Part shown: piece by piece, positions 2,186 through 25,892 of the stretch
How positions within the stretch are numbered: the first letter of the stretch is position 1
How the letters are laid out: each line of letters begins with the position of its first letter
From: a virus
Length of the DNA: 25,949 nt
IMG/VR virus record: IMGVR_UViG_3300037963_000553
Location: 6,069 to 32,017 of that record
Reading direction: 5' to 3' (one strand)
Translations under genes and position numbers: made by a program
Notes under the pieces: model-generated
Database searches by the model: none
Seen by the model: the letters and a program-made list of their open reading frames with translations, nothing else
Told to the model about the DNA's origin: nothing

Positions 2186-3766
2186 TTATATTTTTTGACC
2201 AGTAACCCAGTTTATGACTCTTTTAGCTCTGCTTTCTTCTATTTTAGTTATTCTATCTTCTAATTTATCTGCGTCTATTGCAGAACTCTTAGGAGGTTTT
2301 GCTGTTGTGACTGCATACCAAAGTCCATCAAGTAGGTCATCATTCCTACCTTTTGGGAACTCAAACATCTCATCTACTATGGTTGCGTGTTCTTTTTTGA
2401 TAAACATTTTTCTTCGATTTACAATAGGACAAAGCAATGCTTCTAACCTATCTTCTTTTTTGATACCAGCTGGAGGTCTTACTCCTTGAGATAATCCAGG
2501 AGCAAGTTTTCTTTCTTTTCCAACAAGTTGATTTACATAATCTTTTACCAATCCTTGAGCGCCAACTTTTTCTACATTTACTCTTCTTACAGGGTGAAAC
2601 TCTTTTGCCATGTCTACAATTCTTTTTGGCATATCATATAAAGGTGAGTGTTCTCTATAATAATCAACAATATATATATTCCTATCACTGTCAATAGCAA
2701 TAACCATAATAACCTGATAGTCACTTCTTGCATTTGCTTCATAAGCTAAATCAACTCCCATATATACATTAACAGGTATAGCTGATTCATCTATCATCAT
2801 ATAGTTAAAACCGTTTCTTTCTATAAGATTACCCTTATAATAGTTTAGTCTATCAATATGAAACTTAGCACTTTCTAAATCTCTAGCTTCATTTTGATAC
2901 TCTTGTGCAAACTTATGAACTAATCCCATCTCAGTAAACCTTTGTTTTATGTCCATTAGTTTTTCTTTTGTGAAATAACTAGACCACAAAGGTATACCAT
3001 CTACTATAGCTTTTTTATAAAGCACATTCCAGGCAGATTTTCTATCCTCTTTCTCTGCCTGAAGATACCCATCGTATACTCCTTGTAGAAATGAGTCGTA
3101 ATGGACTATTGTACCAATAAGCCATATTGACCCTTCGTTTTCTTTGGAGTTTTCCAAAGCGGGTTCTACCGTTGACATTACCCATTCTTTAATCTCTCTC
3201 CTTCTATCTGGTGTTTTCGTATTTAATTCTGACTCAAAGTCGTCAAGAATAATATTAGTATATCTTAATCCTAATTGTGAACGACCACGTAAACGCTGAG
3301 AAGTACCTTTTGCAATGATTCTATCTCCTCTAGCAGTAGTAAATTCTTTTTCTGTCCACTTACTACCTTTTAAATCTCCAAAGTAGTATTGTAATGCAGG
3401 ATTAATATCTATATGATTTTGTATATATTTAATATGGTCAATAGCCTGAGATTGTTCTTCAGACACCCAAGCTATAAATTGTTTTTTATCTGGAGGAGAA
3501 AAGTATAGTTGGTATAACAATGCTGTTTTAGCTAGAGTTGATTTAGCGTGACCTCTAGGTAATATAATACAAACACGCTTGTCATCTCCTAAAAGTATAT
3601 CACTTAACTCATACTGATAAGGAGCAGGTGTTGATTTCATAAAGTCTTCAGGTAAAAACATTTGACCAAAAGTAACAATATCTTTTTTTGCTAATTCTAG
3701 TGCTTGTTCTTTCTGAGAAAGGTCTGGTGGTATAATATTAAACGTCTCTGGCTTCTTGCTGCTCAT
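2186..3766 (-). CDS. terL: Terminase large subunit (ATPase-nuclease)
   Basis: This 526-residue protein is the phage DNA-packaging motor: an N-terminal ATPase and a C-terminal RNase H-like nuclease that cuts concatemers. Visible motifs are a Walker A-type loop at 69-77 (LPRGHAKST), a Walker B strand at 172-178 (IILDDFE, with D175 and E178), and a coupling motif at 214-219 (IWLIGT). The nuclease has an acidic strand at 337-340 (GVDL, D339), a likely second acidic position at E399 and a C-terminal D476/D477 pair in GRNDDLLDGL. The Walker A has GHAKS rather than GxGKS, a common variation in terminases. The start overlaps the end of the GGCT gene by 29 bases, and its ribosome binding site is weak, suggesting translational coupling. 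Confidence 0.93.
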   Translation of the reverse strand: MSSKKPETFNIIPPDLSQKEQALELAKKDIVTFGQMFLPEDFMKSTPAPYQYELSDILLGDDKRVCIILPRGHAKSTLAKTALLYQLYFSPPDKKQFIAWVSEEQSQAIDHIKYIQNHIDINPALQYYFGDLKGSKWTEKEFTTARGDRIIAKGTSQRLRGRSQLGLRYTNIILDDFESELNTKTPDRRREIKEWVMSTVEPALENSKENEGSIWLIGTIVHYDSFLQGVYDGYLQAEKEDRKSAWNVLYKKAIVDGIPLWSSYFTKEKLMDIKQRFTEMGLVHKFAQEYQNEARDLESAKFHIDRLNYYKGNLIERNGFNYMMIDESAIPVNVYMGVDLAYEANARSDYQVIMVIAIDSDRNIYIVDYYREHSPLYDMPKRIVDMAKEFHPVRRVNVEKVGAQGLVKDYVNQLVGKERKLAPGLSQGVRPPAGIKKEDRLEALLCPIVNRRKMFIKKEHATIVDEMFEFPKGRNDDLLDGLWYAVTTAKPPKSSAIDADKLEDRITKIEESRAKRVINWVTGQKI

Positions 3767-4139
3767 AAACTCTATCCATCATTATTAACGTTTTTGGTGA
3801 CAACCAATCTCCATCAGGAACTTCTGTAAACATACTAGAGTTTTGCCATAACAAAGGTCCAGCTACATAAACCCAACATTTTTCTTTTTTACCTGTTTCA
3901 TCTAATACTACATCTGCAGTAGTTCTAATATATAAACCATCTTTTACAGACTCATACATATCATACATATTTAATTCTGATTTTGATACGTCAACTAATT
4001 CTACTACAGCACCTTTTCCTTTTTCATTTTTTATAATAGCTGGAAAATGCTTGTGTCCAGGAAATACTAAGCTAAAGCCTTCTATATGACCTGTATCTTC
4101 ATAACCTCTTCTTAACGTACCATAAACTGCTAATCTCAT
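3738..4139 (-). CDS. Gamma-glutamylcyclotransferase (AIG2/BtrG-like) fold protein
   Basis: This 133-residue protein has hallmarks of the GGCT superfamily: the glycine loop YGTLRRG at residues 6-12, a conserved acidic residue in the DMYESV segment (E63, the likely catalytic acid), and a following YIR strand (70-72). Family enzymes remove a gamma-glutamyl group from an amine or peptide, releasing 5-oxoproline. It lies between small and large terminase, overlapping the zinc-protein gene by an ATGA and terL by 29 bases. An enzyme here is unusual because nothing about packaging needs one. It may act with the amidotransferase/amidoligase pair at 10.1-12.8 kb, but it is in a different operon. The fold is clear; the substrate is unknown. 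Confidence 0.8.
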   Translation of the reverse strand: MRLAVYGTLRRGYEDTGHIEGFSLVFPGHKHFPAIIKNEKGKGAVVELVDVSKSELNMYDMYESVKDGLYIRTTADVVLDETGKKEKCWVYVAGPLLWQNSSMFTEVPDGDWLSPKTLIMMDRVYEQQEARDV

Positions 4140-5316: not shown

Positions 5317-6042
5317 TTATAAAGGTCTCACCATAGGTGGTGCGTGTTCTTCTAGTTTTCTATGTAGTTTTTCTAATATTACTACATCTGCTACATTATG
5401 GTCATAAACGTACTTCATTGCTTTTTCATCTCCATACCTAGCTTTTCTCCACATATCTGGTTTTACTCTGGTTTTACCAGCAATACCAAAAAACTCTGTA
5501 GCTGCTTGTAGTGATGAGCGATGAAGCTTTAGTTTTGACCTTACTACATAATATAGGTCTTTATGTGACTTTTGCCTATACAAAGGAAAGTATGTTCCGT
5601 GATATAGTGCTCTAGTTCTAATAAAAGGAATATCAAACCTAGTTCCGTAATATGTGAATATTACATCATATTTGTTCATTTCTTCTACTAATAACTCTGT
5701 AATCCTAGCATCTTGTTTCTCAGACATTAACTCTTCTCTGGTAATTTTAGCTCCAGCAACATTCTTATCTCCTCTGCCTTTAATACACCAAGATAACATA
5801 ACATCGATATTAGCACTAAATCCAGTAGATTCAATATCTAGGTATCCAATTGTTTTTTCGTGACCTGTAGTATATCTGTAAGGTTTTCTTAATCCAAGAG
5901 ATTCTAATTTACGTGTTACTGCTTTATATGTTCTATTATAACCAGCAATACGTATTTCTTGATAGAGAGTAAAAGCAGACTTAGCAGTACGTTCATACTG
6001 GTCTAATATTCTGATTTCATCCTCTGTCCATCTAGTAGCCAT
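5317..6042 (-). CDS. DnaQ/RNase H-like 3'-5' exonuclease with N-terminal Myb/SANT-like domain
   Basis: Numbering here is from an in-frame upstream ATG at 6054. Residues 7-55 look like a Myb/SANT-type helix-turn-helix (RWTEDEIRIL ... KLESLGL). Residues 68-235 carry the three exonuclease motifs: Exo I DIE at 73-75, Exo II YYGTRFDIPF with D141, and Exo III YDHNVADV with D223. This is the YprB-like branch of DEDD exonucleases. It probably degrades or proofreads DNA, targeted by its N-terminal domain. I prefer the ATG at 6042-6040, which forms a TAATG overlap with the preceding stop, because the ATG at 6054 has no ribosome binding site. No DNA polymerase domain is attached, so it is either a stand-alone nuclease or a polymerase partner. 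Confidence 0.75.
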   Translation of the reverse strand: MATRWTEDEIRILDQYERTAKSAFTLYQEIRIAGYNRTYKAVTRKLESLGLRKPYRYTTGHEKTIGYLDIESTGFSANIDVMLSWCIKGRGDKNVAGAKITREELMSEKQDARITELLVEEMNKYDVIFTYYGTRFDIPFIRTRALYHGTYFPLYRQKSHKDLYYVVRSKLKLHRSSLQAATEFFGIAGKTRVKPDMWRKARYGDEKAMKYVYDHNVADVVILEKLHRKLEEHAPPMVRPL

Positions 6043-6422
6043 TACTTGCCCCATTTGTTTTGTTTGACTATCATTGCCATTACCGCATAAACTGCAATAT
6101 CCATAAAAGCATCATCTATTGGTTCATTCTTTGCTTTCATGTCGTGGTTTGTTGACAAGTTGATTAGTCTGTTTATCTTATCATTAAGCCTTACAATTAT
6201 ACCAAATAAGGCTGTATTGACTTCTTTTTCGTTTTTTAAACTGGTACCCATAGCAATATTGCCAGGACCATAATCAAACTGTTTTTTACAAAATGTTAGG
6301 TACATTTCATTTAAAAGAGCTTGAAATTCTTTTTCTGTAGAAGGATAGTTTCCTTTTATATATGATACTACGTCTTCTGATGTACTAGTTTTATTGTTCA
6401 TCTGCTTTACTTTCGCATTCAT
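6042..6422 (-). CDS. DUF1599 (nucleotide modification associated domain 1) protein
   Basis: This 126-residue all-helical protein carries motifs of the DUF1599 family: FDYGPGN at 49-55, RLNDKINRL at 78-86 and EPIDDAFMDIAVYA at 100-113. The acidic/His layout is MazG-like, and the family is thought to bind or hydrolyse nucleotides. It has been linked by gene neighbourhood to phage base-modification pathways, but it is also common in phages with no known modification. The ATG at 6422 has a GGAGG ribosome binding site. The start overlaps the upstream coiled-coil gene by 32 bases, and the end overlaps the exonuclease start by one base (TAATG). Confidence 0.7.
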   Translation of the reverse strand: MNAKVKQMNNKTSTSEDVVSYIKGNYPSTEKEFQALLNEMYLTFCKKQFDYGPGNIAMGTSLKNEKEVNTALFGIIVRLNDKINRLINLSTNHDMKAKNEPIDDAFMDIAVYAVMAMIVKQNKWGK

Positions 6423-6591
6423 ATGGAAAGTCCTCCGTATCGTTTACATCTTCTAATTCACGTATTAACTTATCCCAGTTAAGGTTTTGACGTATTTTTT
6501 CTAATTCGTCTAGTTCTTGCTGTAATCTTTGCACTAATGCAGTATTACCTTGTTCTTTTGCTTTTAAGATTGCTTTTTTGAGGTCTTCCAT
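6391..6591 (-). CDS. Small coiled-coil protein
   Basis: A 66-residue acidic protein with a Lys/Glu/Leu heptad pattern over residues 1-50 (coiled coil) and a very acidic C-terminus. AGGAG lies upstream of the ATG. It overlaps the metalloprotease gene by 28 bases at its start and the DUF1599 gene by 32 bases at its end, so it is embedded in a coupled chain. I recognise no family. Confidence 0.6.
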   Translation of the reverse strand: MEDLKKAILKAKEQGNTALVQRLQQELDELEKIRQNLNWDKLIRELEDVNDTEDFPYECESKADEQ

Positions 6592-6875
6592 AGATATTCT
6601 CCTACTCCTAATTGAAATAATCCGTTACTAATTGCATCTATTTGTCTTTCATCGTGGTCTAAACCAGTATTATAGTGTATTGCGTGTAATACTTCGTGAA
6701 TCAACGTTTCATACTTTCTAGATGTTTCTATATCACTGTTAATTAATATAATATTTTCTTTTACAAGATGTCTACCATACAATTCTTTAGTATCATCTTC
6801 ATGTTTTAGTGGTAATTCTGCTATTTTATACAAATGACCACCAATATTTAATTTCATACCTTTTACTTTCGCCAT
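6564..6875 (-). CDS. M78/ImmA-like small zinc metallopeptidase
   Basis: This 103-residue protein has a HEXXH zinc motif (HEVLH, 60-64) on the helix ETLIHEVLHAIHY, followed by DERQID (76-80), where E77 or D80 could be the third ligand. This matches short M78 (ImmA/IrrE)-like peptidases, which in phages and mobile elements often cleave repressors. It is the first gene of the left-going operon, with GGGAG upstream and the candidate late promoter at 6934-6905. No cognate repressor gene is adjacent, so a regulatory-protease role is only a guess. The short length leaves room for little beyond the catalytic core. Confidence 0.7.
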   Translation of the reverse strand: MAKVKGMKLNIGGHLYKIAELPLKHEDDTKELYGRHLVKENIILINSDIETSRKYETLIHEVLHAIHYNTGLDHDERQIDAISNGLFQLGVGEYLWKTSKKQS

Positions 6876-8141: not shown

Positions 8142-8267
8142 ATGTTAGAACTAATGGGTTTTGTATTGGCAATATCATTTCTTGCTAATATAATGCAGTT
8201 GGTTATGATTGTAGAAATGCAAGCATACAGGCGCGGGTATAATAGCGCCAAGAATAAAAACCGATAA
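8142..8267 (+). CDS. 41-residue single-pass membrane protein
   Basis: An ATG at 8142 follows a good AGAAAGGA ribosome binding site and opens a 41-codon frame ending in TAA at 8265-8267. Residues 2-25 are strongly hydrophobic (MLELMGFVLAISFLANIMQL and on), followed by a basic, polar tail with several Arg, Lys and Asn, so a transmembrane helix with the tail in the cytoplasm is likely. Phages often encode such micro-proteins as membrane-acting host modulators or lysis helpers. The same ribosome binding site and hairpin plan as its neighbours makes it a credible gene. Confidence 0.6.
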   Translation: MLELMGFVLAISFLANIMQLVMIVEMQAYRRGYNSAKNKNR

Positions 8268-8278
8268 TGTTAATAGAT

Positions 8279-8303
8279 GGGGGCCTACATACCTCGGGCC
8301 CCT
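8279..8303 (+). promoter_or_regulatory. Leader hairpin upstream of the 8325 gene
   Basis: GGGGCC (8280-8285) pairs with GGCCCC (8297-8302) around an 11-base loop, with a possible further G-U pair. It lies 8-15 bases before the AAAGGA ribosome binding site of the next gene. This is the third hairpin in a row placed just before a gene in this operon, and by far the most GC-rich spot nearby. Confidence 0.5.
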
Positions 8304-8324
8304 GTCACATTGAAAGGAAATACA

Positions 8325-8597
8325 ATGAAAATAATAGAAGTAGTAGTATATCACAGTAGCACACCTTGTTACGATTGTCATGAACCAGGATGTCATACTC
8401 ACGGATATTACACTCCTGACTACGATATTAGAAAAGTAATACTATCAATCTTGAACAAAAATCAGGATTGGGACCTTCAACAAATACAAGTGTGCGAAAT
8501 TACACTAAATGTACCTGAAAGAGATACTTTGAAAGATATAACTGACAAGTACATAAAATACCATGTTGATGAGGGTGAATATGAACTACGTGACTAA
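8325..8597 (+). CDS. Small Cys/His-rich protein
   Basis: I place the start at the ATG at 8325 because GAAAGGA lies 7 bases upstream. An in-frame ATG at 8277 would translate the hairpin and has no ribosome binding site. The 90-residue product has a Cys/His cluster near its N-terminus (CYDCHEPGCHTHGY, about 15-28), suggesting a bound zinc ion. A charged region follows and ends in an acidic tail. I recognise no family. It is last in the three-gene operon; a strong terminator follows 4 bases after the stop. Confidence 0.65.
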   Translation: MKIIEVVVYHSSTPCYDCHEPGCHTHGYYTPDYDIRKVILSILNKNQDWDLQQIQVCEITLNVPERDTLKDITDKYIKYHVDEGEYELRD

Positions 8598-8601
8598 AAC
8601 T

Positions 8602-8630
8602 GGGGCACCTTCGGGTGCCTCTTTTTTTTT
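8602..8630 (+). terminator. Rho-independent terminator
   Basis: GGGGCACC (8602-8609), a TTCG tetraloop and GGTGCCTC (8614-8621) form an 8-bp stem with one G-U pair, followed by nine T residues. This is a textbook intrinsic terminator with an extra-stable UUCG loop. It ends the 7713-8597 operon. Confidence 0.92.
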
Positions 8631-8964
8631 ATTTTACCAAAAACCTTGTGCCATAGCTAGACACGAGCCGTTGCTAGACACGAGCTATTCCCCCGCGACG
8701 CAAGCTAGATAGATATGACTGTATCTAGAGCTAGACCGTTATCCCTTCTTTTTTTTTTAAGACTACAACCCTTCCGACGGAAGCTAGATATATGGGACTG
8801 ACAAAAACCCCGCGACGGAACTTGCTAGTTTTAGTCTGATTATATTTGCTAGACAGCAGCCTCCCCGCGACGGAAACCCTAGATATATGTCGCGATAGTT
8901 TGGATACGACCCGATATGTGTTGTCCGTCTAGTAGAAATTTTGTAAATTATAGAGGTGGAGAGT
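8631..8964. repeat. Repeat-rich control region
   Basis: No gene is evident here. GCTAGACACGAG occurs at 8656-8667 and 8673-8684. A degenerate motif, (C)CCCGCGACGGAA followed closely by (G)CTAG and often ATATAT, occurs at 8691, 8771 (as CTTCCGACGGAAG), 8808 and 8863, with a last CCGACGGAA near 8984. A CTAGATA/TATCTAG hairpin lies at 8705-8728. Irregular spacing argues against CRISPR and favours protein-binding sites (iterons, operator or origin). Confidence 0.6.
8921..8949 (+). promoter_or_regulatory. Candidate promoter for the 8965-12842 operon
   Basis: TTGTCC (8921-8926) and TAAATT (8944-8949) are 17 bases apart, just downstream of the repeats, with the next gene starting at 8965. The -35 differs from the usual TTGAC, as may suit a promoter needing an activator bound at the repeats. 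Confidence 0.4.
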
Positions 8965-9462
8965 ATGCGTCGGATAGCCACCACCGACGGAAAGGACAAA
9001 GTTATGACGGAAACTATGATACAGCGACACAAATGTAAATGCTCCGACTGTGGGCATAGTCATTGGGTAGAGCGCGTCGTAGAGATGCAGACGCTTCCTG
9101 TGGGCGTCGAGATTAGTATCGTCCCAGATAGCGAAAGTGAAAGATGGGAGCTTACTATCGTCAATAATATACAGGGTACGACGGGTATGGTTGAGTGCGA
9201 CACAATGAAACAATGTCTATATCTCATAGAGCAATGTCGTAAAAACATAATGAAAGACGGGTACAGGTTCATAGTCGTATCACCTCGTAGTCGTTTTGAG
9301 ACACACAGTCGCGTAAACAGGTTAGAGTATAATCAGTTTATAGACGACACATTTAAGACTAAAAAGAAGAAGGACGACTGGTATAGCGACCTAATCCAGA
9401 AGGTTGGTCGCAGCTCAGTGCGTTCGTCTAACAAAGTAAACAGACTAGGCTACAAAAAGTAG
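8965..9462 (+). CDS. Putative zinc-binding protein, unknown function
   Basis: An ATG at 8965 has a strong GAGGTGG ribosome binding site. An in-frame ATG at 9004 has AAAGGA 7 bases upstream and is equally possible; the shared product is about 152 residues. From the 9004 start the N-terminus carries a compact Cys/His group (HKCKCSDCGHSHW), likely a zinc knuckle. The middle is mixed alpha/beta, and the C-terminus is strongly basic (KTKKKKDDW and a Ser/Arg/Lys-rich end), consistent with nucleic-acid binding. It is the first gene of the operon that contains the amidotransferase and amidoligase. I recognise no family. Confidence 0.65.
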   Translation: MRRIATTDGKDKVMTETMIQRHKCKCSDCGHSHWVERVVEMQTLPVGVEISIVPDSESERWELTIVNNIQGTTGMVECDTMKQCLYLIEQCRKNIMKDGYRFIVVSPRSRFETHSRVNRLEYNQFIDDTFKTKKKKDDWYSDLIQKVGRSSVRSSNKVNRLGYKK

Positions 9463-9964: not shown

Positions 9965-10132
9965 ATGGCGACGACTTACAGACTATATTATTCGCTAGTC
10001 GACGAGAATAAGACTGGTATTCCTTTCCCAGTCGTTTGTCGGTCGTCGCAACTTTTGAGTACTTTTACTCAACAACAAGAGCAGACGCAGAAAGCTAGTC
10101 TGCTAGATATAAACCAAAACAAAGGAGATTAG
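9965..10132 (+). CDS. 55-residue protein fitting the gap before the amidotransferase
   Basis: An ATG at 9965 opens a 55-codon frame (MATTYRLYYSLVDENKTG and on) that ends at TAG 10130-10132, only 3 bases before the amidotransferase ATG. It fills almost exactly the gap between two genes and carries the same GTCG/CGAC-rich codon style. The ribosome binding site is weak (GGAAATAG about 10 bases upstream), but coupling to the preceding stop 7 bases away is possible. The product has a Gln-rich C-terminal half and no recognised family. Confidence 0.5.
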   Translation: MATTYRLYYSLVDENKTGIPFPVVCRSSQLLSTFTQQQEQTQKASLLDINQNKGD

Positions 10133-10135
10133 ACT

Positions 10136-11152
10136 ATGTGTGGTATATATGGAATAGCGAAATCTCCGACACCTTATAACAGAAAAGACTTAAAACTAGT
10201 CAAGAAAGTATTAAGGGACATAGCAATAGATAGTGAGTCGCGAGGTTCGCACTCGTCTGGAATTGCTAAGGTCGGAGAACACACTCGCATATATAAATCA
10301 CTATTGCCGTCTAGCAAATTTGTAGACACTTGGGAATATTCAACTGCCGTTAATAGTTTAAAAGGTAGTAGTAATATTCTTCTCGGACATACACGATTTG
10401 CGACAGAAGGTGCAATAGTCAAATCAAACGCACACCCATTTAAAGTCGGCGATGTCGTCGGAGCTCATAATGGTTGCGTTTACAATATTAAAGAGATGTC
10501 GGCACAATTGGATAAGACTTGTCCTGTTGATAGCCAACTAATCTTTAAGTCTATAAATGATAATAAGAATATAGAAGATGCCGTCAAAAACTTTGACGCC
10601 GACTTCGCATTATCATTTGTCAAGAAAGATACTAATGTCTTGTACTTAACAAGAGAGAATAACCGACCGCTTTATGTCGCTTATATTCCGTCTATTAAAA
10701 CTCTTTTTTACGCAAGTGAAGAGGATTTTATTGAGGACGCATTAGTCGGAAATGGTATAAATGACATAGATATATATAGTCTTAGCAAGAATACATTATA
10801 TGCTTTTAATACGACTCAATTTGATAGTATTAAAACAAATGTAGTTAAGACACAATTCAAATATGATAGTCGTGTATATCAATTCAATATGAATAATTAC
10901 TCATCAACGACTTATCTTGCAGATAACGACGAGTGGGAGGCAATTATTCCTAATTCATATATAGAGGACGAAAAGAAATCTTTGTCTGAGTTATATGGTG
11001 GTGAACCTGATGAATGGTTTTGGGACGATATTGAACAAGAGTGGATGTATATGGATTCTACGACTGGTCAAATATTGTCCGAAGAACAGGTTGCGACTAT
11101 GCAATACTATGACGAGTTAGATGAAAGTGAGGTCGCAAGTGAACTCCTATGA
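10136..11152 (+). CDS. Class II glutamine amidotransferase (Ntn hydrolase)
   Basis: This 338-residue protein starts MCGIYGI, so removal of Met exposes the nucleophile Cys2. Family motifs follow in order: RGSHSSG (36-42), GHTRFAT (84-90, R87 binding glutamine), NAHPF (98-102), HNG (111-113, oxyanion hole) and a VDSQ segment (131-134, where D132 binds substrate). The glutaminase core covers about 1-205. No PRPP-transferase, isomerase or synthetase domain follows, only an acidic tail (about 270-338), so ammonia must go to a separate partner. That is most likely the amidoligase encoded next, whose start overlaps this gene. AAAGGAG precedes the ATG. Expected reaction: glutamine to glutamate plus ammonia. 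Confidence 0.9.
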   Translation: MCGIYGIAKSPTPYNRKDLKLVKKVLRDIAIDSESRGSHSSGIAKVGEHTRIYKSLLPSSKFVDTWEYSTAVNSLKGSSNILLGHTRFATEGAIVKSNAHPFKVGDVVGAHNGCVYNIKEMSAQLDKTCPVDSQLIFKSINDNKNIEDAVKNFDADFALSFVKKDTNVLYLTRENNRPLYVAYIPSIKTLFYASEEDFIEDALVGNGINDIDIYSLSKNTLYAFNTTQFDSIKTNVVKTQFKYDSRVYQFNMNNYSSTTYLADNDEWEAIIPNSYIEDEKKSLSELYGGEPDEWFWDDIEQEWMYMDSTTGQILSEEQVATMQYYDELDESEVASELL

Positions 11153-12845
11153 CGGATTGACCGAAGAACTTCACGAAGAAACACAAGTCACAGAATGTTG
11201 TGCAGACTGCGGAGATAGTTTTGACGAAGGTGAATTAATGGACCAAGATGATAATGGTGATTTAATTTGCTCAGATTGTCGTGAAAACTATGTAGACTGC
11301 TACAATTGTTCTCAGACTGTTCATAATAACGACGCAATATGTGCCGATAACGGCGAGGAATATTGCGACGGATGTTATTACGAACAATACACTAGATGTG
11401 AGGATTGCGACGATGAAATATACATTGACGACGCATTCTATTCCGATAGTCGCGGTGTTTACTTATGTGAATACTGCCACGACCAAGGTAGTAATGCCGA
11501 CGTAGAGTGGAATGTATATAGTCATAATTACATTTCGTCTAATACAGACTTCGTTAGTCCAATCAGGTTCGGATATAAAGAAGATACATTTAATGTCGTA
11601 TCCTCTAAACGATATGTCGGGATTGAGATTGAAGCAAACTATTGCGACGAAGTCTACAATGGCGACATAGAAGACCAGATTAACTATCATATAAGGCAGT
11701 CTAGAAATACTACCGACCGAGATATTATACCTGGTCCAGATAGAGTTACACACGACGGAAGTGTTTGCAGCGACCAACATAGGTTCGGAAACGAGATAGT
11801 AATGTATCCTCGTCGTGGCGATAAGATAGTAGAAGATGCAAAAGTCGTCTGCGACACTATCAAAAACTATGGTGGATATGTTAGTCGTAAATGTGGACTT
11901 CATATACATATAGATACAAGGGACTATGACTATAAACATTTCTTAGTATTAGCATTGTTTACGAAGCTCATAGAACCTAATGTCTATGCTTGGTGTCCTC
12001 CGTCTAGACTTCGTGGTAGATGGTCTAGAAGAGTATCTCAGGCGATAAGGGACTTTCAATTTGTTTCAGATAGGGACGACTTTATTGATATGTGGTACGA
12101 CAACGGAGGATATTCAGACGATAAGTACAACGAGAAAAGATATCACGGACTAAACCTGCATTGTCATTTTCAGGCAAATCAGGGACTAGAAATACGATAT
12201 CACGGAGGTACTTTAAATCCCGACAAGATAAAACATTGGGTCATATTTTGGACTAATGTCGTTGATAAATGTTGGGAGATAGCTGAAAATGAAGTCGGTT
12301 ATAGTAGTCTTAGAAATACTGCTATGTATAAGTCGCTTTACCAAAGTCCAAACCGAAGGGTACTAGACCGAATGGATAGGGCATATCCTAGATTTTCGTC
12401 CAATGGTGATAGTATAGATTATAAACAATATATGAAAGATAGCGAATGTTTAAGACGCGTTATGGGTTTACCTAAACGAGATAGACCTTATGTCGTAGAA
12501 CCTCTTTTAGATTTATATAAAAGAAAGCACGACTTAGCTTTTATCTCTTTATCAAATATATTTGACATATTTGAGATACCGACTGAAACACAGAAGTATA
12601 TTAGAAGTCGTATCAGGGAAATAAGTGATAGTGCGTCTGAAATGGACATTGACCATCTTGAAAATTGTTTTGAAGGAAAAAGGGCTATGATAGAATATAG
12701 TCATCATACGGGACTATTCAAGTATGTAGACTTCTTTCATCATAGACTTCCGACTATTGACGATACGAATAGACTAGGGAGTGTAGATAGTATGTATTCC
12801 TTTGATGTTAGACCAACAGAGGAAAATATACGCAGACACTTGTAG
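11139..12845 (+). CDS. Amidoligase_2-type (COOH-NH2) ligase with N-terminal zinc array
   Basis: I choose the GTG at 11139, preceded by GAGGT at good spacing; an in-frame ATG at 11121 lacks a clear site, and residue numbers below count from it. Residues 26-119 hold six CxxC knuckles (C27/C30, C50/C53, C60/C63, C82/C85, C93/C96, C116/C119), predicting three zinc modules. Residues 165-380 match the glutamine-synthetase-fold amidoligases (PF12224 type): GIEIEAN (167-173), DGSV (212-215), EIVMYP (225-230), CGLHIHID (258-265) and LEIRYHGGTLNP (356-367). These should bind Mg-ATP and join a carboxyl to ammonia or an amine. Residues 400-568 are an unrecognised helical tail. It overlaps the amidotransferase gene, implying a two-part enzyme. 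Substrate unknown. Confidence 0.85.
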   Translation: MNSYDGLTEELHEETQVTECCADCGDSFDEGELMDQDDNGDLICSDCRENYVDCYNCSQTVHNNDAICADNGEEYCDGCYYEQYTRCEDCDDEIYIDDAFYSDSRGVYLCEYCHDQGSNADVEWNVYSHNYISSNTDFVSPIRFGYKEDTFNVVSSKRYVGIEIEANYCDEVYNGDIEDQINYHIRQSRNTTDRDIIPGPDRVTHDGSVCSDQHRFGNEIVMYPRRGDKIVEDAKVVCDTIKNYGGYVSRKCGLHIHIDTRDYDYKHFLVLALFTKLIEPNVYAWCPPSRLRGRWSRRVSQAIRDFQFVSDRDDFIDMWYDNGGYSDDKYNEKRYHGLNLHCHFQANQGLEIRYHGGTLNPDKIKHWVIFWTNVVDKCWEIAENEVGYSSLRNTAMYKSLYQSPNRRVLDRMDRAYPRFSSNGDSIDYKQYMKDSECLRRVMGLPKRDRPYVVEPLLDLYKRKHDLAFISLSNIFDIFEIPTETQKYIRSRIREISDSASEMDIDHLENCFEGKRAMIEYSHHTGLFKYVDFFHHRLPTIDDTNRLGSVDSMYSFDVRPTEENIRRHL

Positions 12846-13194: not shown

Positions 13195-13383
13195 ATGAAA
13201 GATACGACCATTAAAGTTCTTGTTCCAGTCACTCACGACGAAGAGACTGAGCTAGACGTATGGGATGTAGACTTTGCTTACAACGAGTTTGCTAATGCTA
13301 TCAAAGAGTTTGAAACTGACAATGATATGCGTTATGACGCTTGGAATGATAAGCAAAGAGATTATATGAATGACCAAAGATGA
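13195..13383 (+). CDS. Small acidic protein, unknown
   Basis: A 62-residue, strongly acidic protein (MKDTTIKVLVPVTHDEETEL start), with a beta-rich N-terminus and helical C-terminus. The ribosome binding site is weak (ATAGGTAA). It is the first gene behind the candidate structured leader and is joined to the next gene by an ATGA overlap. No family recognised. Confidence 0.6.
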   Translation: MKDTTIKVLVPVTHDEETELDVWDVDFAYNEFANAIKEFETDNDMRYDAWNDKQRDYMNDQR

Positions 13384-13736
13384 GTTATCTTGGATTTATA
13401 TCAGTTGAAAAGGGCGAGTCGTCTAAAGGTCTATGGGAACCAACAGTTGTTTGTAAGTGTGGCAATAGACACGAAGGCGACGAGCCAAGTATTAATGTTA
13501 AAGAATGTGAACAATGTGAGGGAAATATGATTGAACACGAAGAAGGTAATGTCGTAGATATAGATACAGACGATATGATGGTCTGTGGATACTGCGGTAT
13601 TGAAGAATACTACATGAAAGATTGCGACTGTTCTGAAGAAGTTGTCACTTACTTTGAGTTTAAAGAAAGTGTAGCAGAAGAGACTATGGGCAATAAAGAT
13701 GAATATCATAGAATATTAGACGGAGGTAGGTGCTAA
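13380..13736 (+). CDS. Cys-rich zinc-ribbon protein
   Basis: A 118-residue acidic protein with two Cys clusters: CKCGNRH with CEQCEGN (near 25-50), and CGYCGIEE with DCDCSEE (near 72-88). These suggest two small zinc sites. It overlaps the preceding gene by ATGA and its stop overlaps the next start (TAATG). The acidic, Cys-rich form recalls phage adaptor proteins, but there is no direct family match. Confidence 0.65.
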   Translation: MSYLGFISVEKGESSKGLWEPTVVCKCGNRHEGDEPSINVKECEQCEGNMIEHEEGNVVDIDTDDMMVCGYCGIEEYYMKDCDCSEEVVTYFEFKESVAEETMGNKDEYHRILDGGRC

Positions 13737-21314: not shown

Positions 21315-24300
21315 TTAAGGTTTGTATTCTGTTTCTTCTCTTCTCTTTTTGATGTCATCTATTTTATCTTTCATAATTCTGTAATAACTTACATCATCTG
21401 GAGTAATGTATCCGCTTTTAGGATATCTAGTTCCATATGTGTTATTAAACTTTTCCAAAACCTGGTATGCTTTTTTAGGTTGGTCTTGTATAATAAGTTC
21501 TTTTATATAATCAATAGTATCTCTTCTTTTTTGTTGGACACTTCTTCTTTTCTCTCCTTCTGTTAAGGTACCAGCAGGCATTCTATAATCTTGTTCTCCA
21601 AGAGAAATACCAAATCCGTATTTAATCTGTCTGGATAAAATACTACCAAAAACAGGAGAAAGGTCGCTTACAGCTCCTCTAGTAGCTATATCTAAGTCTT
21701 TTCCTTTGTTAAATGCTAAGTCGTAAAAAGTACCCATTGAGTCTTTTAGTCTAATTAAATCGTCATAAATAACTGGTTTTATAGCAAAGTCAATAGTATC
21801 CATCGGGTCTTCACTTGACATAATATCAGTTATTAATCCAAAAGCACCTACATTACCTATGTTAGTTAGTATTTTCTGAGCATCTAAAGACTCCATTATC
21901 TTTTGTCTTTCATCTCTTGCATAGTATTCTGGTTCTCCGCTTAACATATTAAACATTTGTTCTTTTGCCCAAATAACACCAGAACCTCCAGCTACTCCTC
22001 CAATTCCTAAAGTTAAAAGAGGAACAACGTTTCCATCTATAAATTCTTTCTCAACAACATCCATAGCGTATACAGCTTGTCTAAATCCAAATCTTTTAAA
22101 TAGTAATAAAGGTTTTAACATAGGGTCACTAAATAAATAAGGGTCTAAAGTAAAGTCTCTTTGTAGCTGAGATTTAGTAGCAAATCTTTGCATACCTCTT
22201 AACATAGTTTCTTTTTCTTTAGACATAACTTCTACTTTCTTTTTTTTACCTCTATATCTAATTGTTTTAGTAGTTGTTCCATATTGTCCAGACTGTATCA
22301 TCTTCAAGTTCTTAACAACAAACTCTGGGTCCATACCAAGTCTTTGAAGTTTTTTTCTAGCCCAAGCTTTTCTTGCTTCTGGAGCCAGTGCATCAACAAG
22401 ACCTAATCCAACTCTCTCTCCTTTTAAAATTCTACCCATCTTTATAACTGCTTCTTCAAATGTTGCAGCAGCTATTGTTTGATTTCCTTTATTGACTATA
22501 GAGAAGACTGTAGCTGTTCGTTCTGTTGTTCTTTCAATTTTTTTTCTATAAGCATCCATTCCATCTATTACATATTCTGTAGATAAATTGCTTGTACCCA
22601 ATTCTCTTGCAACACCTCTTGCTCTAGCATAATCTGAACTATAGTTTAACATCTCTTCAATAGTATTTACTAGAGTAGCACCACTTTGAGATACTCTTTG
22701 TTGAAGGGCGACATCTTGCATACCAGGAACATATAATTTTGCCATAGCTTTCATAGATAATACTGGACCAAGTTCCATTGCAGTAGAGATAATTGTCTGT
22801 GTTAAGTTTGGAATAAATGCTGTACCAAGACCTATCTTTAAACTCATCTGTATATTACCTATACTTTGAAAAGCTTGTATAGCAGTTCCATACATATCTG
22901 AATTTCTATTATAATTAATCTCTCCAGTAAATACTTGCTTCATAAGATTAACAGCGCTTTTTACATCGTGCTGCATAAGAGGTAAGTCTTTACCTCCTAA
23001 GAAATCAGGAACCTTTGTAAAAGGCATTCTTTCATCGCCTATTTTTGCTAACATCCTTTGGAATAACTTACCGTCTGCTCCAAATGCTTTTGAAAACTCA
23101 ATTCTTTTAGAAGCACCAGTAATATAATTACCTAGCAAAAGACGAACATCTTGTTCCAATAATTCATCTGTTGCGTTTTGAAGCATATTTACTGACCTGT
23201 TGTCAAAACTAGCAAAAAACTTTCTAGGTTTCTCAAGAGGACTAAAAGGCTTTAGAGTGTTGTTAAACTGATTTAATTTTAACAATCTGTAAACATCAAA
23301 ATTATTTATATCAGCGTTTACACCAGCTAAAGAAGTTTTATATTCATTAAATATCTTAACAAATTGTTTCTGTCCTTTAAACTTACTTTTTTCAAAACTT
23401 CTAAGAATGTCTGTCAATGCTTTTCCAAACTCTGCATTAAAATCATCTGAATACAATTCATCTACATTTTCTGTTTGTTTATGTTTTTTTAACAACTCAT
23501 CTTTTTTCTTAGCTATTGTTTTACTACCGTCTGTTAAAAGGTCTAGAACTTCTTTTTTAAACATCAAAGGAATATATCCTTCTACATAATCTTGAAGTCT
23601 AGGAAGCACTCCTTGAGCATCAACATAAATATCGTCTGTTATTTTTTGAGTTCCTTCTAAAAAGTTAGCTCTTGCTAACTCAAAATCTTTTTCATCTCCA
23701 CTTAGTTTTTCAGCTTTTCTTCTTATATTAGAAACATATCTTTTTACAGTTCCTTTATCTTGACTGTTTATAGTTCTAAAATCTTTAAAACCAGTTACAT
23801 CTCCAATTCCAGATAAGTAATCCTCAAATTTTTTCTTAACACCTTTATTCATTGTGCCTAACTGACCTCTTGTTAGCACTCCAAGAGCATCTAGTCTTGT
23901 AGATACCTTCTGATTAGTCCCTCTATTAATTGCTTGCATAGTTCTAATTAACCTTCTAGCAACTGGGTCTTTAGTAGAGTAGTAAAAAGGACCCATAGCA
24001 CTTAACATAGACTTCATTAAAGAGCTATTGTTATCTCTATCTTTACCTCCAATAGTTTGAAACATTAAACCTTCTGGAGATTCTTGATATCTTTTAGCAT
24101 CAGCAACAAATCTATTGATTTGATTTCTGTTGTACATATTCTCTACAAGCTTTGTTCTTGTAACAGAATCTAAATCTTTTACCTTTATTTTATCTAACTG
24201 ACCATTTTCAATTAAGTCGTGAAAGTAGTGTTTCTTAGCGTTCTTTCCTGGACCTGTTAATTCTATAGCAGTTTCTAAAACAGCTTCCTTAAAATCTTCT

Positions 24301-25892
24301 GCAGTATAATCATCTACTCCCTGGTTCATTCTTCTCTTGATAGCATTAAACTCAGCCATTTGAAGTTTTCTCAAAATAGTAGGATTGTTTTTTAATTGCC
24401 TTGATGTAGCAAGCTTGTTAGCTATCCTTAAACCGTCAATTGTAACATTGTCTGTTTCTGCAAAGTAGTCAAAGAACTTTAAAGTATTCTTTTCGTCTAA
24501 GAAATATCTTGTTTTTTTAACTCCTTCAGGACCACTTATAAGAGTAATCTCCATAGTTGTTCCTTTTCCAGTCTGTTTAATGCTTGCTAAATCTACATTT
24601 GCAGATGCTATTGCATCATAATTTGCTATAGCAGTAGGATTTTCTCTATCTATTTCCGTAGCTGTATATTCTTTTTTGTTTTTTTTGTTTTTACGACTAA
24701 CTTTACTTACCTCTAAACCAATAATTTTATCAGCTCTTCCAGCTTTAGTTCTTACACCAGCAACCTGCTCAAAAACACTAATACCTTTTTTATCTTTGCT
24801 TCTACCAGAAACATCAATATTAACTTTGTTCTCTCTAATTTGGTCTTTAGCTGCTTGCCTAATGATATTTTCTAGAGAATCTTCTTTTCCTCCAAAAGCT
24901 TCTGACAACAGTTTTGCTCCTTTAACATCTTCTATTCTTTGTCCAATTTTAGCAACAGCAGAATTACCTAGTCTTGTTCCTAACATAATAGCACCAGCTG
25001 CATATAAATCAGTCATCTTTGGAGCTCTTCCTTCATATAGAGGTCCCATAGATAAGGCTACTGCTGAGCCTTCAAGACCTAAAGCTGTTAGTTCTCCAGT
25101 TCTACCTTTAAATACTTTATCTGCTAATGGAGTAAATCTTGAAAGCCTAGCTGTTCCTCCAATAGTTCCTAAAGCATATCCCTTTCCAAAATCAGAAAGC
25201 TTTGCATTTTTTGTAACTTCTGATAAAACTTCACCATAGCTCATATTTTCATACTTAGAAAAATCAACACCTTCTTCAATCATAGCATCTCTTGTTCTCA
25301 TAGTAGCCAACCTAACTCCCTCATAATTACCATACATTGCTACTCCTGGTAATCCAAAATCAAAAACATCTTTAGCTATATCATCTGCAACTTCTTTAGA
25401 TAAGTTTGTTTTAGTTGTAAAGAAAGCAGCAGTTCTTTTTTTAGCTAGCTCATTTGACTGCCTGCCTACTAAGGCTTTTACTCCAAACTTTTGTATCAAT
25501 TCTTTTGATGCTTCTCTACCTCCTAAAAGCATAGCACCTTTAACTCCAATAGTTCCCATTCCTCTACTTGCAGCCATAAGAGCCAAGTCTTCTTTGGATG
25601 CAAACATACTTCCAACCAAAGAAAACATATCCATCAATTGAGATTGGTCAATATGGTCTACGTCGTAATATTTTTTACCATTTTGAATTTCATAGATAAG
25701 ACCTCCAATAGAATCATTGTAGGCTTTTTTGTAACCAAGAGACATTGTACTCCAAAATCCATCATAGTCTTGTTGGTCAAAATTTTCATCTGAATAAGGG
25801 TCTTCATACCCACCTTGATTGGCTTGACTTAAAGAATCAGACTGAGTTACAGCAAAAGGGTCTGAATATCCACCTTTAATTTGTTCTGGCAT
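21315..25892 (-). CDS. Giant internal virion/ejection protein candidate
   Basis: This 1525-residue protein is by far the longest in the window. It is mostly helical and Lys/Glu-rich, with two hydrophobic stretches (about 1020-1055, around FIPNLTQTIISTAMELG, and about 1277-1300, VVPLLTLGIGGVAGGSGVIW). Podoviruses carry one or two such proteins inside the capsid that form the trans-envelope DNA channel, and the C-terminal region resembles large polyvalent phage proteins (LPD38-like), though I could not verify that. A GGAG site precedes the ATG, which overlaps the upstream stop (TAATG). I see no clear protease, lytic or polymerase motif. Confidence 0.6.
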   Translation of the reverse strand: MPEQIKGGYSDPFAVTQSDSLSQANQGGYEDPYSDENFDQQDYDGFWSTMSLGYKKAYNDSIGGLIYEIQNGKKYYDVDHIDQSQLMDMFSLVGSMFASKEDLALMAASRGMGTIGVKGAMLLGGREASKELIQKFGVKALVGRQSNELAKKRTAAFFTTKTNLSKEVADDIAKDVFDFGLPGVAMYGNYEGVRLATMRTRDAMIEEGVDFSKYENMSYGEVLSEVTKNAKLSDFGKGYALGTIGGTARLSRFTPLADKVFKGRTGELTALGLEGSAVALSMGPLYEGRAPKMTDLYAAGAIMLGTRLGNSAVAKIGQRIEDVKGAKLLSEAFGGKEDSLENIIRQAAKDQIRENKVNIDVSGRSKDKKGISVFEQVAGVRTKAGRADKIIGLEVSKVSRKNKKNKKEYTATEIDRENPTAIANYDAIASANVDLASIKQTGKGTTMEITLISGPEGVKKTRYFLDEKNTLKFFDYFAETDNVTIDGLRIANKLATSRQLKNNPTILRKLQMAEFNAIKRRMNQGVDDYTAEDFKEAVLETAIELTGPGKNAKKHYFHDLIENGQLDKIKVKDLDSVTRTKLVENMYNRNQINRFVADAKRYQESPEGLMFQTIGGKDRDNNSSLMKSMLSAMGPFYYSTKDPVARRLIRTMQAINRGTNQKVSTRLDALGVLTRGQLGTMNKGVKKKFEDYLSGIGDVTGFKDFRTINSQDKGTVKRYVSNIRRKAEKLSGDEKDFELARANFLEGTQKITDDIYVDAQGVLPRLQDYVEGYIPLMFKKEVLDLLTDGSKTIAKKKDELLKKHKQTENVDELYSDDFNAEFGKALTDILRSFEKSKFKGQKQFVKIFNEYKTSLAGVNADINNFDVYRLLKLNQFNNTLKPFSPLEKPRKFFASFDNRSVNMLQNATDELLEQDVRLLLGNYITGASKRIEFSKAFGADGKLFQRMLAKIGDERMPFTKVPDFLGGKDLPLMQHDVKSAVNLMKQVFTGEINYNRNSDMYGTAIQAFQSIGNIQMSLKIGLGTAFIPNLTQTIISTAMELGPVLSMKAMAKLYVPGMQDVALQQRVSQSGATLVNTIEEMLNYSSDYARARGVARELGTSNLSTEYVIDGMDAYRKKIERTTERTATVFSIVNKGNQTIAAATFEEAVIKMGRILKGERVGLGLVDALAPEARKAWARKKLQRLGMDPEFVVKNLKMIQSGQYGTTTKTIRYRGKKKKVEVMSKEKETMLRGMQRFATKSQLQRDFTLDPYLFSDPMLKPLLLFKRFGFRQAVYAMDVVEKEFIDGNVVPLLTLGIGGVAGGSGVIWAKEQMFNMLSGEPEYYARDERQKIMESLDAQKILTNIGNVGAFGLITDIMSSEDPMDTIDFAIKPVIYDDLIRLKDSMGTFYDLAFNKGKDLDIATRGAVSDLSPVFGSILSRQIKYGFGISLGEQDYRMPAGTLTEGEKRRSVQQKRRDTIDYIKELIIQDQPKKAYQVLEKFNNTYGTRYPKSGYITPDDVSYYRIMKDKIDDIKKRREETEYKP

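Follow-up and report, generated by a model that had tools for sequence, protein, structure and literature searches.

The window analysed here is a stretch of 25,949 nt that corresponds to bases 6069-32017 of a linear 42,304-base IMG/VR record (labelled G000) from a tailed phage, with a portal of P22 type, a capsid protein of SU10 type and a helicase of DnaB type. A nucleotide search with the whole window against the phage collection returned no match. An earlier note on this DNA had described a glutaminase gene followed by an amidoligase gene, both of which were recovered as open reading frames at 10136-11152 and 11121-12845; the zinc ribbons of the amidoligase, its probable start at GTG 11139 and a gamma-glutamyl cyclotransferase (GGCT) at 3738-4139(-) had been overlooked. 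The features considered are as follows:

3738..4139, minus strand: gamma-glutamyl cyclotransferase, 133 aa, with YGTL motif and catalytic Glu63 (PF06094, 2.3e-14; phrog_2520; conserved in 40 lineage loci)
10122..10128, plus strand: ribosome-binding site AAGGAGA of the glutaminase gene (read from the sequence)
10136..11152, plus strand: free-standing class II glutamine amidotransferase (GATase), 338 aa, with Cys2 nucleophile, R87, N112-G113 and D132 (PF13522, phrog_4736, GlmS glutaminase fold, residues kept in 40 relatives)
11129..11132, plus strand: GAGG, likely ribosome-binding site of the amidoligase gene, within the GATase gene (read from the sequence)
11139..12845, plus strand: Amidoligase_2, carboxylate-amine ligase of glutamine synthetase (GS) fold, likelier start GTG 11139, listed reading frame from ATG 11121 (PF12224; SD position and relative L016; conserved overlap with the GATase gene)
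11199..11477, plus strand: three tandem Cys4 zinc ribbons, Cys27-Cys119 in the 574-aa numbering (cysteine conservation; folded in the AlphaFold model)
11601..12296, plus strand: GS-fold catalytic core, E169/E171, D212-S214, E225, H261/H263 and E357/R359 (conservation, AlphaFold model, fold search)

The first gene of the pair encodes a member of the class II (Ntn) glutamine amidotransferases, with the profile, the Ntn fold and the predicted active-site residues all present. It matched PF13522 (E=3.3e-15) and PF13537 (8.5e-9) above their cut-offs as well as phrog_4736 (1e-42), and the closest solved structure to its AlphaFold model was the glutaminase domain of GlmS (1xff, 5.7e-14). The model, like that of the amidoligase, was built on 38-40 homologues; its mean pLDDT was 87, and it was confident over most of its length, with low confidence at residues 250-268. 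The nucleophile and glutamine-binding residues (C2, R87, N112-G113, D132) were at least 97% conserved among 40 GATases sharing 53-75% identity with that of the window. The description of the protein as a free-standing glutaminase without a synthetase domain also holds, residues 270-338 being modelled as a small helix/strand segment. When approximately 85,000 prokaryote genomes were scanned with the GATase for a host or bacterial source, none was confirmed.

For the second gene, the first start codon is ATG 11121, and a GAGG motif lies six bases 5' of GTG 11139; in the relative L016, the aligned ATG likewise follows a GGAGG at a distance of six bases, and the overlap with the GATase gene is again 14 nt. 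Because of this SD-like placement and the matching overlap, GTG 11139 is probably the true start. The amidoligase reading frame overlaps or touches that of the GATase in nearly all loci of the lineage, and the two proteins are therefore very probably translated together. Programmed frameshifting across the overlap was considered and found unneeded, as the second gene has a good ribosome-binding site, and no natural fusion was seen, no reading frame carrying both matches among the loci surveyed. In the profile search that the earlier note had proposed, the protein matched PF12224 with E=1.9e-17 and 64.4 bits (curated cut-off 22), in line with its reading as a GS-fold amidoligase. The active-site signatures ExE (E169/E171), HxH (H261/H263) and ExR (E357/R359) are all present, as are the other motifs quoted in that note for both proteins, and the catalytic residues were at least 97% conserved across 35 amidoligases with 35-48% identity to that of the window. 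The AlphaFold model (mean pLDDT 83) was confident over most of its length, and a fold search with the core retrieved YbdK, glutamine synthetase and gamma-glutamylmethylamide synthetase (4e-5 to 1e-3, probability 0.99-1.00); TM-scores to solved structures were low (0.2-0.4), so the model is comparable to them in the core only. The fold search was alone in giving structural matches, the sequence having no meaningful match in the PDB. Judged by profile, predicted GS-type fold and predicted active site, the protein is thus an intact member of the Amidoligase_2 family. A single-sequence scan of IMG/VR with the amidoligase confirmed no further locus, and an alignment of distant amidoligases contained no block sufficiently conserved for searching.

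The N terminus of the amidoligase consists of three Cx2C-x(18-19)-Cx2C units. Across the 35 relatives, conservation reached at least 97% for 11 of the 12 ribbon cysteines and 94% for the remaining one, and the median identity of the region to the window was just 35%. Another phage protein of amidoligase fold is annotated as a LIM-domain protein, and Cys-rich extensions on such phage proteins are not unique to the window. Three further loci were noted: in two different phages (L047:3562-5763 and L048:9944-12170), a Cys-rich amidoligase adjoins a very divergent class II GATase-like protein that starts with MCL, has CxxC motifs of its own and is missed by PF13522, and a spring-water phage (MW202789, L191:4619-7864) encodes a 684-aa Cys-rich amidoligase with a GATase just 3' of it, the whole record giving no match for GGCT, ATP-grasp or PF14395.

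Conservation of the pairing was assessed in two ways. A GATase scan of IMG/VR yielded about 50 loci of the window lineage, in which the zinc-ribbon amidoligase follows the GATase wherever the contig extends far enough. In order to avoid the circularity of loci found through the GATase itself, a second search was run with the large terminase, and both genes were present in 27/27 of the retrieved loci that extend 8.5 kb or more on the relevant side, which bears out the pairing of the two genes that had been put forward earlier. In close pairs, the GATase had a dN/dS of about 0.12-0.27 and the amidoligase one of 0.22-0.40, compared with 0.02-0.06 for the terminase; both genes are thus under purifying selection, and this signal together with the 27/27 conservation rules out chance reading frames. 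The terminase had a median identity to the window of 90% and the GATase one of 64%; at 43%, the amidoligase evolves far more quickly than the remaining large conserved genes in the comparison. Such fast change around an unchanging active site hints at targets that differ between hosts. GATase and amidoligase distances remained correlated after removal of the terminase signal (r 0.79), much of which may be linkage, since the small terminase and GGCT, neighbours without a functional tie, had a distance correlation of 0.67.

GGCT is the third cassette enzyme in the window phage. Its gene sits between the small and large terminase genes, outside the operon of the pair, and its signature residues (Y6-G7-T8-L9 and E63) are conserved in 40 relatives. 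The Pfam model PF06094 detected it in 11/11 lineage records tested; a custom model based on two sequences did not recover the window protein and gave weak matches in the relatives. GGCT-type enzymes release gamma-glutamyl groups as 5-oxoproline.

Several other features of the window were recorded. An apparent stand-alone unit at 8166-8621 (+) comprises a promoter-like site (8166-8194, 11/12 matches, the regional count of such sites not exceeding that in shuffled sequence), a single reading frame of 106 aa (8277-8597) and a strong terminator (8602-8621, GGGGCACC-TTCG-GGTGCCTC followed by T9). Small Cys-rich proteins with CxC/CxxC motifs and no PHROG or Pfam match are encoded near the pair at 8956-9462 (+) and 13380-13736 (+). 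A small IrrE/M78 metallopeptidase-like protein lies at 6564-6875 (-) (phrog_1233, PF06114 sub-threshold), a protein matching PF07659/DUF1599 just above the cut-off, and also phrog_1485, lies at 6042-6422 (-) and may hint at nucleotide or DNA modification, and a 1525-aa protein at 21315-25892 (-) matched nothing in Pfam or PHROG at the thresholds applied.

The earlier note knew of no characterised phage example; the families, intact predicted active sites and pairing that it proposed stand, but the combination is not unprecedented in phages, for a set of GATase and amidoligase has been named for years in LUZ24-, phiEco32-, PA11- and RIO-1-like phages (PMC3890496, PMC5498523, PMC6209634, PMC11945000), and the combination itself is already known. 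The cassette was named in LUZ24-like phages (PMC3890496, PMC11945000), phage tf (PMC3517423) and PA11-like phages (PMC6209634), GATase and amidoligase were reported in OM43 phages (PMC10580990), and in Pseudoalteromonas phages the set was called a 'peptidoglycan modification cassette', with prevention of superinfection as its proposed role (PMC5498523). In phage HP1, expression of the genes predicted for peptidoglycan modification sets in immediately upon infection (PMC7082346). The papers on the cassette build on work by Iyer et al. (2009) and Hardies et al. (2013), cited in PMC5498523 and PMC10580990, and the cell-wall function is stated in some as if known (PMC11318856). In the literature that we searched, we found no experiment behind this function or the superinfection block, no biochemical test of the phage GATase and amidoligase set, and no demonstrated substrate of any phage amidoligase.

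The full cassette consists of the GATase, a COOH-NH2 ligase (PF14395), a small gene of unknown function, the amidoligase, an ATP-grasp protein and often GGCT. Nearly all of the other phage loci retrieved by the GATase profile contain it, and it can be recognised in PaP3, SU10, Cellulophaga phi14:2 and Zobellviridae phages. Profiles of ATP-grasp and PF14395 matched all four full-cassette phages used as positive controls (4/4) and gave no match in G000 and 10 relatives (linear, possibly incomplete records of 36-57 kb), and the locus is therefore called a reduced variant and not a member of the full cassette; the missing genes could lie beyond these linear records. The complete genome of Arthrobacter phage Wheelbite (NC_055034), whose host is Arthrobacter sp. 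ATCC 21022, has the same trio of GGCT, amidoligase and GATase and likewise no ATP-grasp or PF14395 match, with 14 Arthrobacter phage records matching its amidoligase and 14 its GATase. Wheelbite differs from the window in its gene order (GGCT-amidoligase-GATase on one strand), its amidoligase without zinc ribbons and its distant sequence. As the ATP-grasp and COOH-NH2 ligase were not found in these lineage records and the same trio occurs in Wheelbite, three enzymes may suffice. Four phage records (Porphyromonas, Blautia, Syntrophomonadaceae and Faecalibacterium) have Amidoligase_2 and no GATase_6 match, so coupling to a GATase is not obligatory for the amidoligase family; in the Blautia and Syntrophomonadaceae phages the amidoligase adjoins GGCT, which ties it to gamma-glutamyl chemistry. 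These pairs and the Wheelbite trio together point to the amidoligase as the hub, with GGCT no less informative as a partner than the GATase. We consider it highly probable that the window encodes intact enzymes of the named families that form a reduced version of the known phage cassette.

From computed families, folds, intact active sites, pairing and the presence of GGCT, we infer a chemistry, complex formation, direction, target and benefit as follows. The GATase and the amidoligase are probably made together from their overlapping genes; the former would bind glutamine or another gamma-glutamyl compound and release NH3 or glutamate, and the latter would activate a carboxylate at the expense of ATP, creating an amide or isopeptide bond on a target in the host cell to which its zinc ribbons may help it to bind. 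GGCT, encoded separately amid packaging genes, would remove gamma-glutamyl groups as 5-oxoproline, either recycling them or undoing the mark; given this activity of GGCT-type enzymes, the product is most simply guessed to be a gamma-glutamyl amide or isopeptide. We assign a probability of about 0.45 to a chemistry in which gamma-glutamyl amides are formed on a target in the host cell and removed by GGCT. By analogy with the cassette literature, from which this inference comes, the likeliest target would be the cell wall, as a peptide or precursor, and the likeliest benefit the exclusion of competing phages; nothing in the window points specifically to the cell wall. A stricter temporal version, in which the trio would be a complete and reversible system, the pair placing a gamma-glutamyl-type mark on a host target early in infection and GGCT, made late with the terminase genes, erasing it before progeny release, is a long shot.

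Four rival explanations were ranked, in descending order, as ammonia channelling, protein tagging, nitrogen metabolism and base modification. Were the pair, in line with the earlier note, a strict two-subunit amidotransferase that converts a carboxylate to a primary amide, for instance on wall peptides in the manner of MurT/GatD, one would expect what is found here, namely a free-standing glutaminase with an intact predicted glutamine site, a GS-fold ligase with glutamine synthetase among its structural neighbours, and strict adjacency of the two genes. However, simple amidation gives GGCT no obvious role, and the four phage records with Amidoligase_2 and no GATase_6 match argue against it, so that we regard this alternative as possible and on the unlikely side. 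A host protein, e.g., a component of the machinery for transcription or translation, could instead be tagged by the amidoligase with glutamate or some other amino compound, the ribbons choosing the target. The conserved cysteines would fit this, zinc ribbons being typical protein- or nucleic-acid-binding modules, and the classical ATP-grasp partner is annotated as a RimK-like 'ribosomal protein S6 glutaminyl transferase'; yet that RimK-like protein was not found in the lineage records searched, which leaves protein tagging rather unlikely.

A role of the trio in simply remodelling the infected cell's pool of glutamine/glutamate or gamma-glutamyl amines draws on the fact that gamma-glutamyl groups are handled by all three enzymes, but we judge it improbable, as zinc ribbons and a rapidly evolving amidoligase (43% vs. 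90% median identity for the terminase) are unlike a housekeeping role. Very improbable, finally, is the formation of an amide on a modified phage base or nucleotide: the protein at 6042-6422(-) that speaks for it ('nucleotide modification associated domain 1', PF07659) matched only marginally (26.4 bits, cut-off 25) and its gene lies away from the pair, no thymidylate-synthase-like, hydroxymethylase or deazaguanine gene was present among the scanned proteins, and the pair also occurs in phages without such context.

Parts of the cassette occur in hundreds of sequenced phages, and the window lineage and the cultured Arthrobacter phage mark the smallest set for assay; the reduced trio simplifies the biochemical question. 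Among known enzymes, YbdK, glutamine synthetase and gamma-glutamylmethylamide synthetase share the core fold and the ExE, HxH and ExR signatures of the window amidoligase at approximately 10-13% identity, without a PDB sequence match. MurT/GatD likewise pairs a glutaminase with an ATP-dependent ligase, possibly amidating a carboxylate as the window pair may do, an analogy of function alone. Homology to MurT/GatD was rejected: GatD belongs to the class I glutaminases and MurT to the Mur ligases, whereas above the cut-off the window pair matched only the profiles of class II GATase and Amidoligase_2. The closest systems are the classical cassettes of the LUZ24/PaP3/tf/UFV-P2, phiEco32/SU10, PA11/TC6 and RIO-1/PSA-HP1 phages, which likewise have a class II GATase (phrog_4736), Amidoligase_2 and GGCT, and in which, as in the window, GATase and amidoligase lie in the DNA-replication gene region. 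Those cassettes include the COOH-NH2 ligase (PF14395) and ATP-grasp, neither of which was found in the window lineage, and the GGCT of the window phage lies among terminase genes, unlike theirs. A Cys4 ribbon ends many, though not all, of the classical GATases at the C terminus and their amidoligases have none, whereas the window lineage carries its ribbons on the amidoligase, so that here the ribbon belongs to the other partner. What is new here is the reduced composition, the position of GGCT among the terminase genes, the ribbons on the amidoligase and not on the GATase, and the speed at which the amidoligase evolves.
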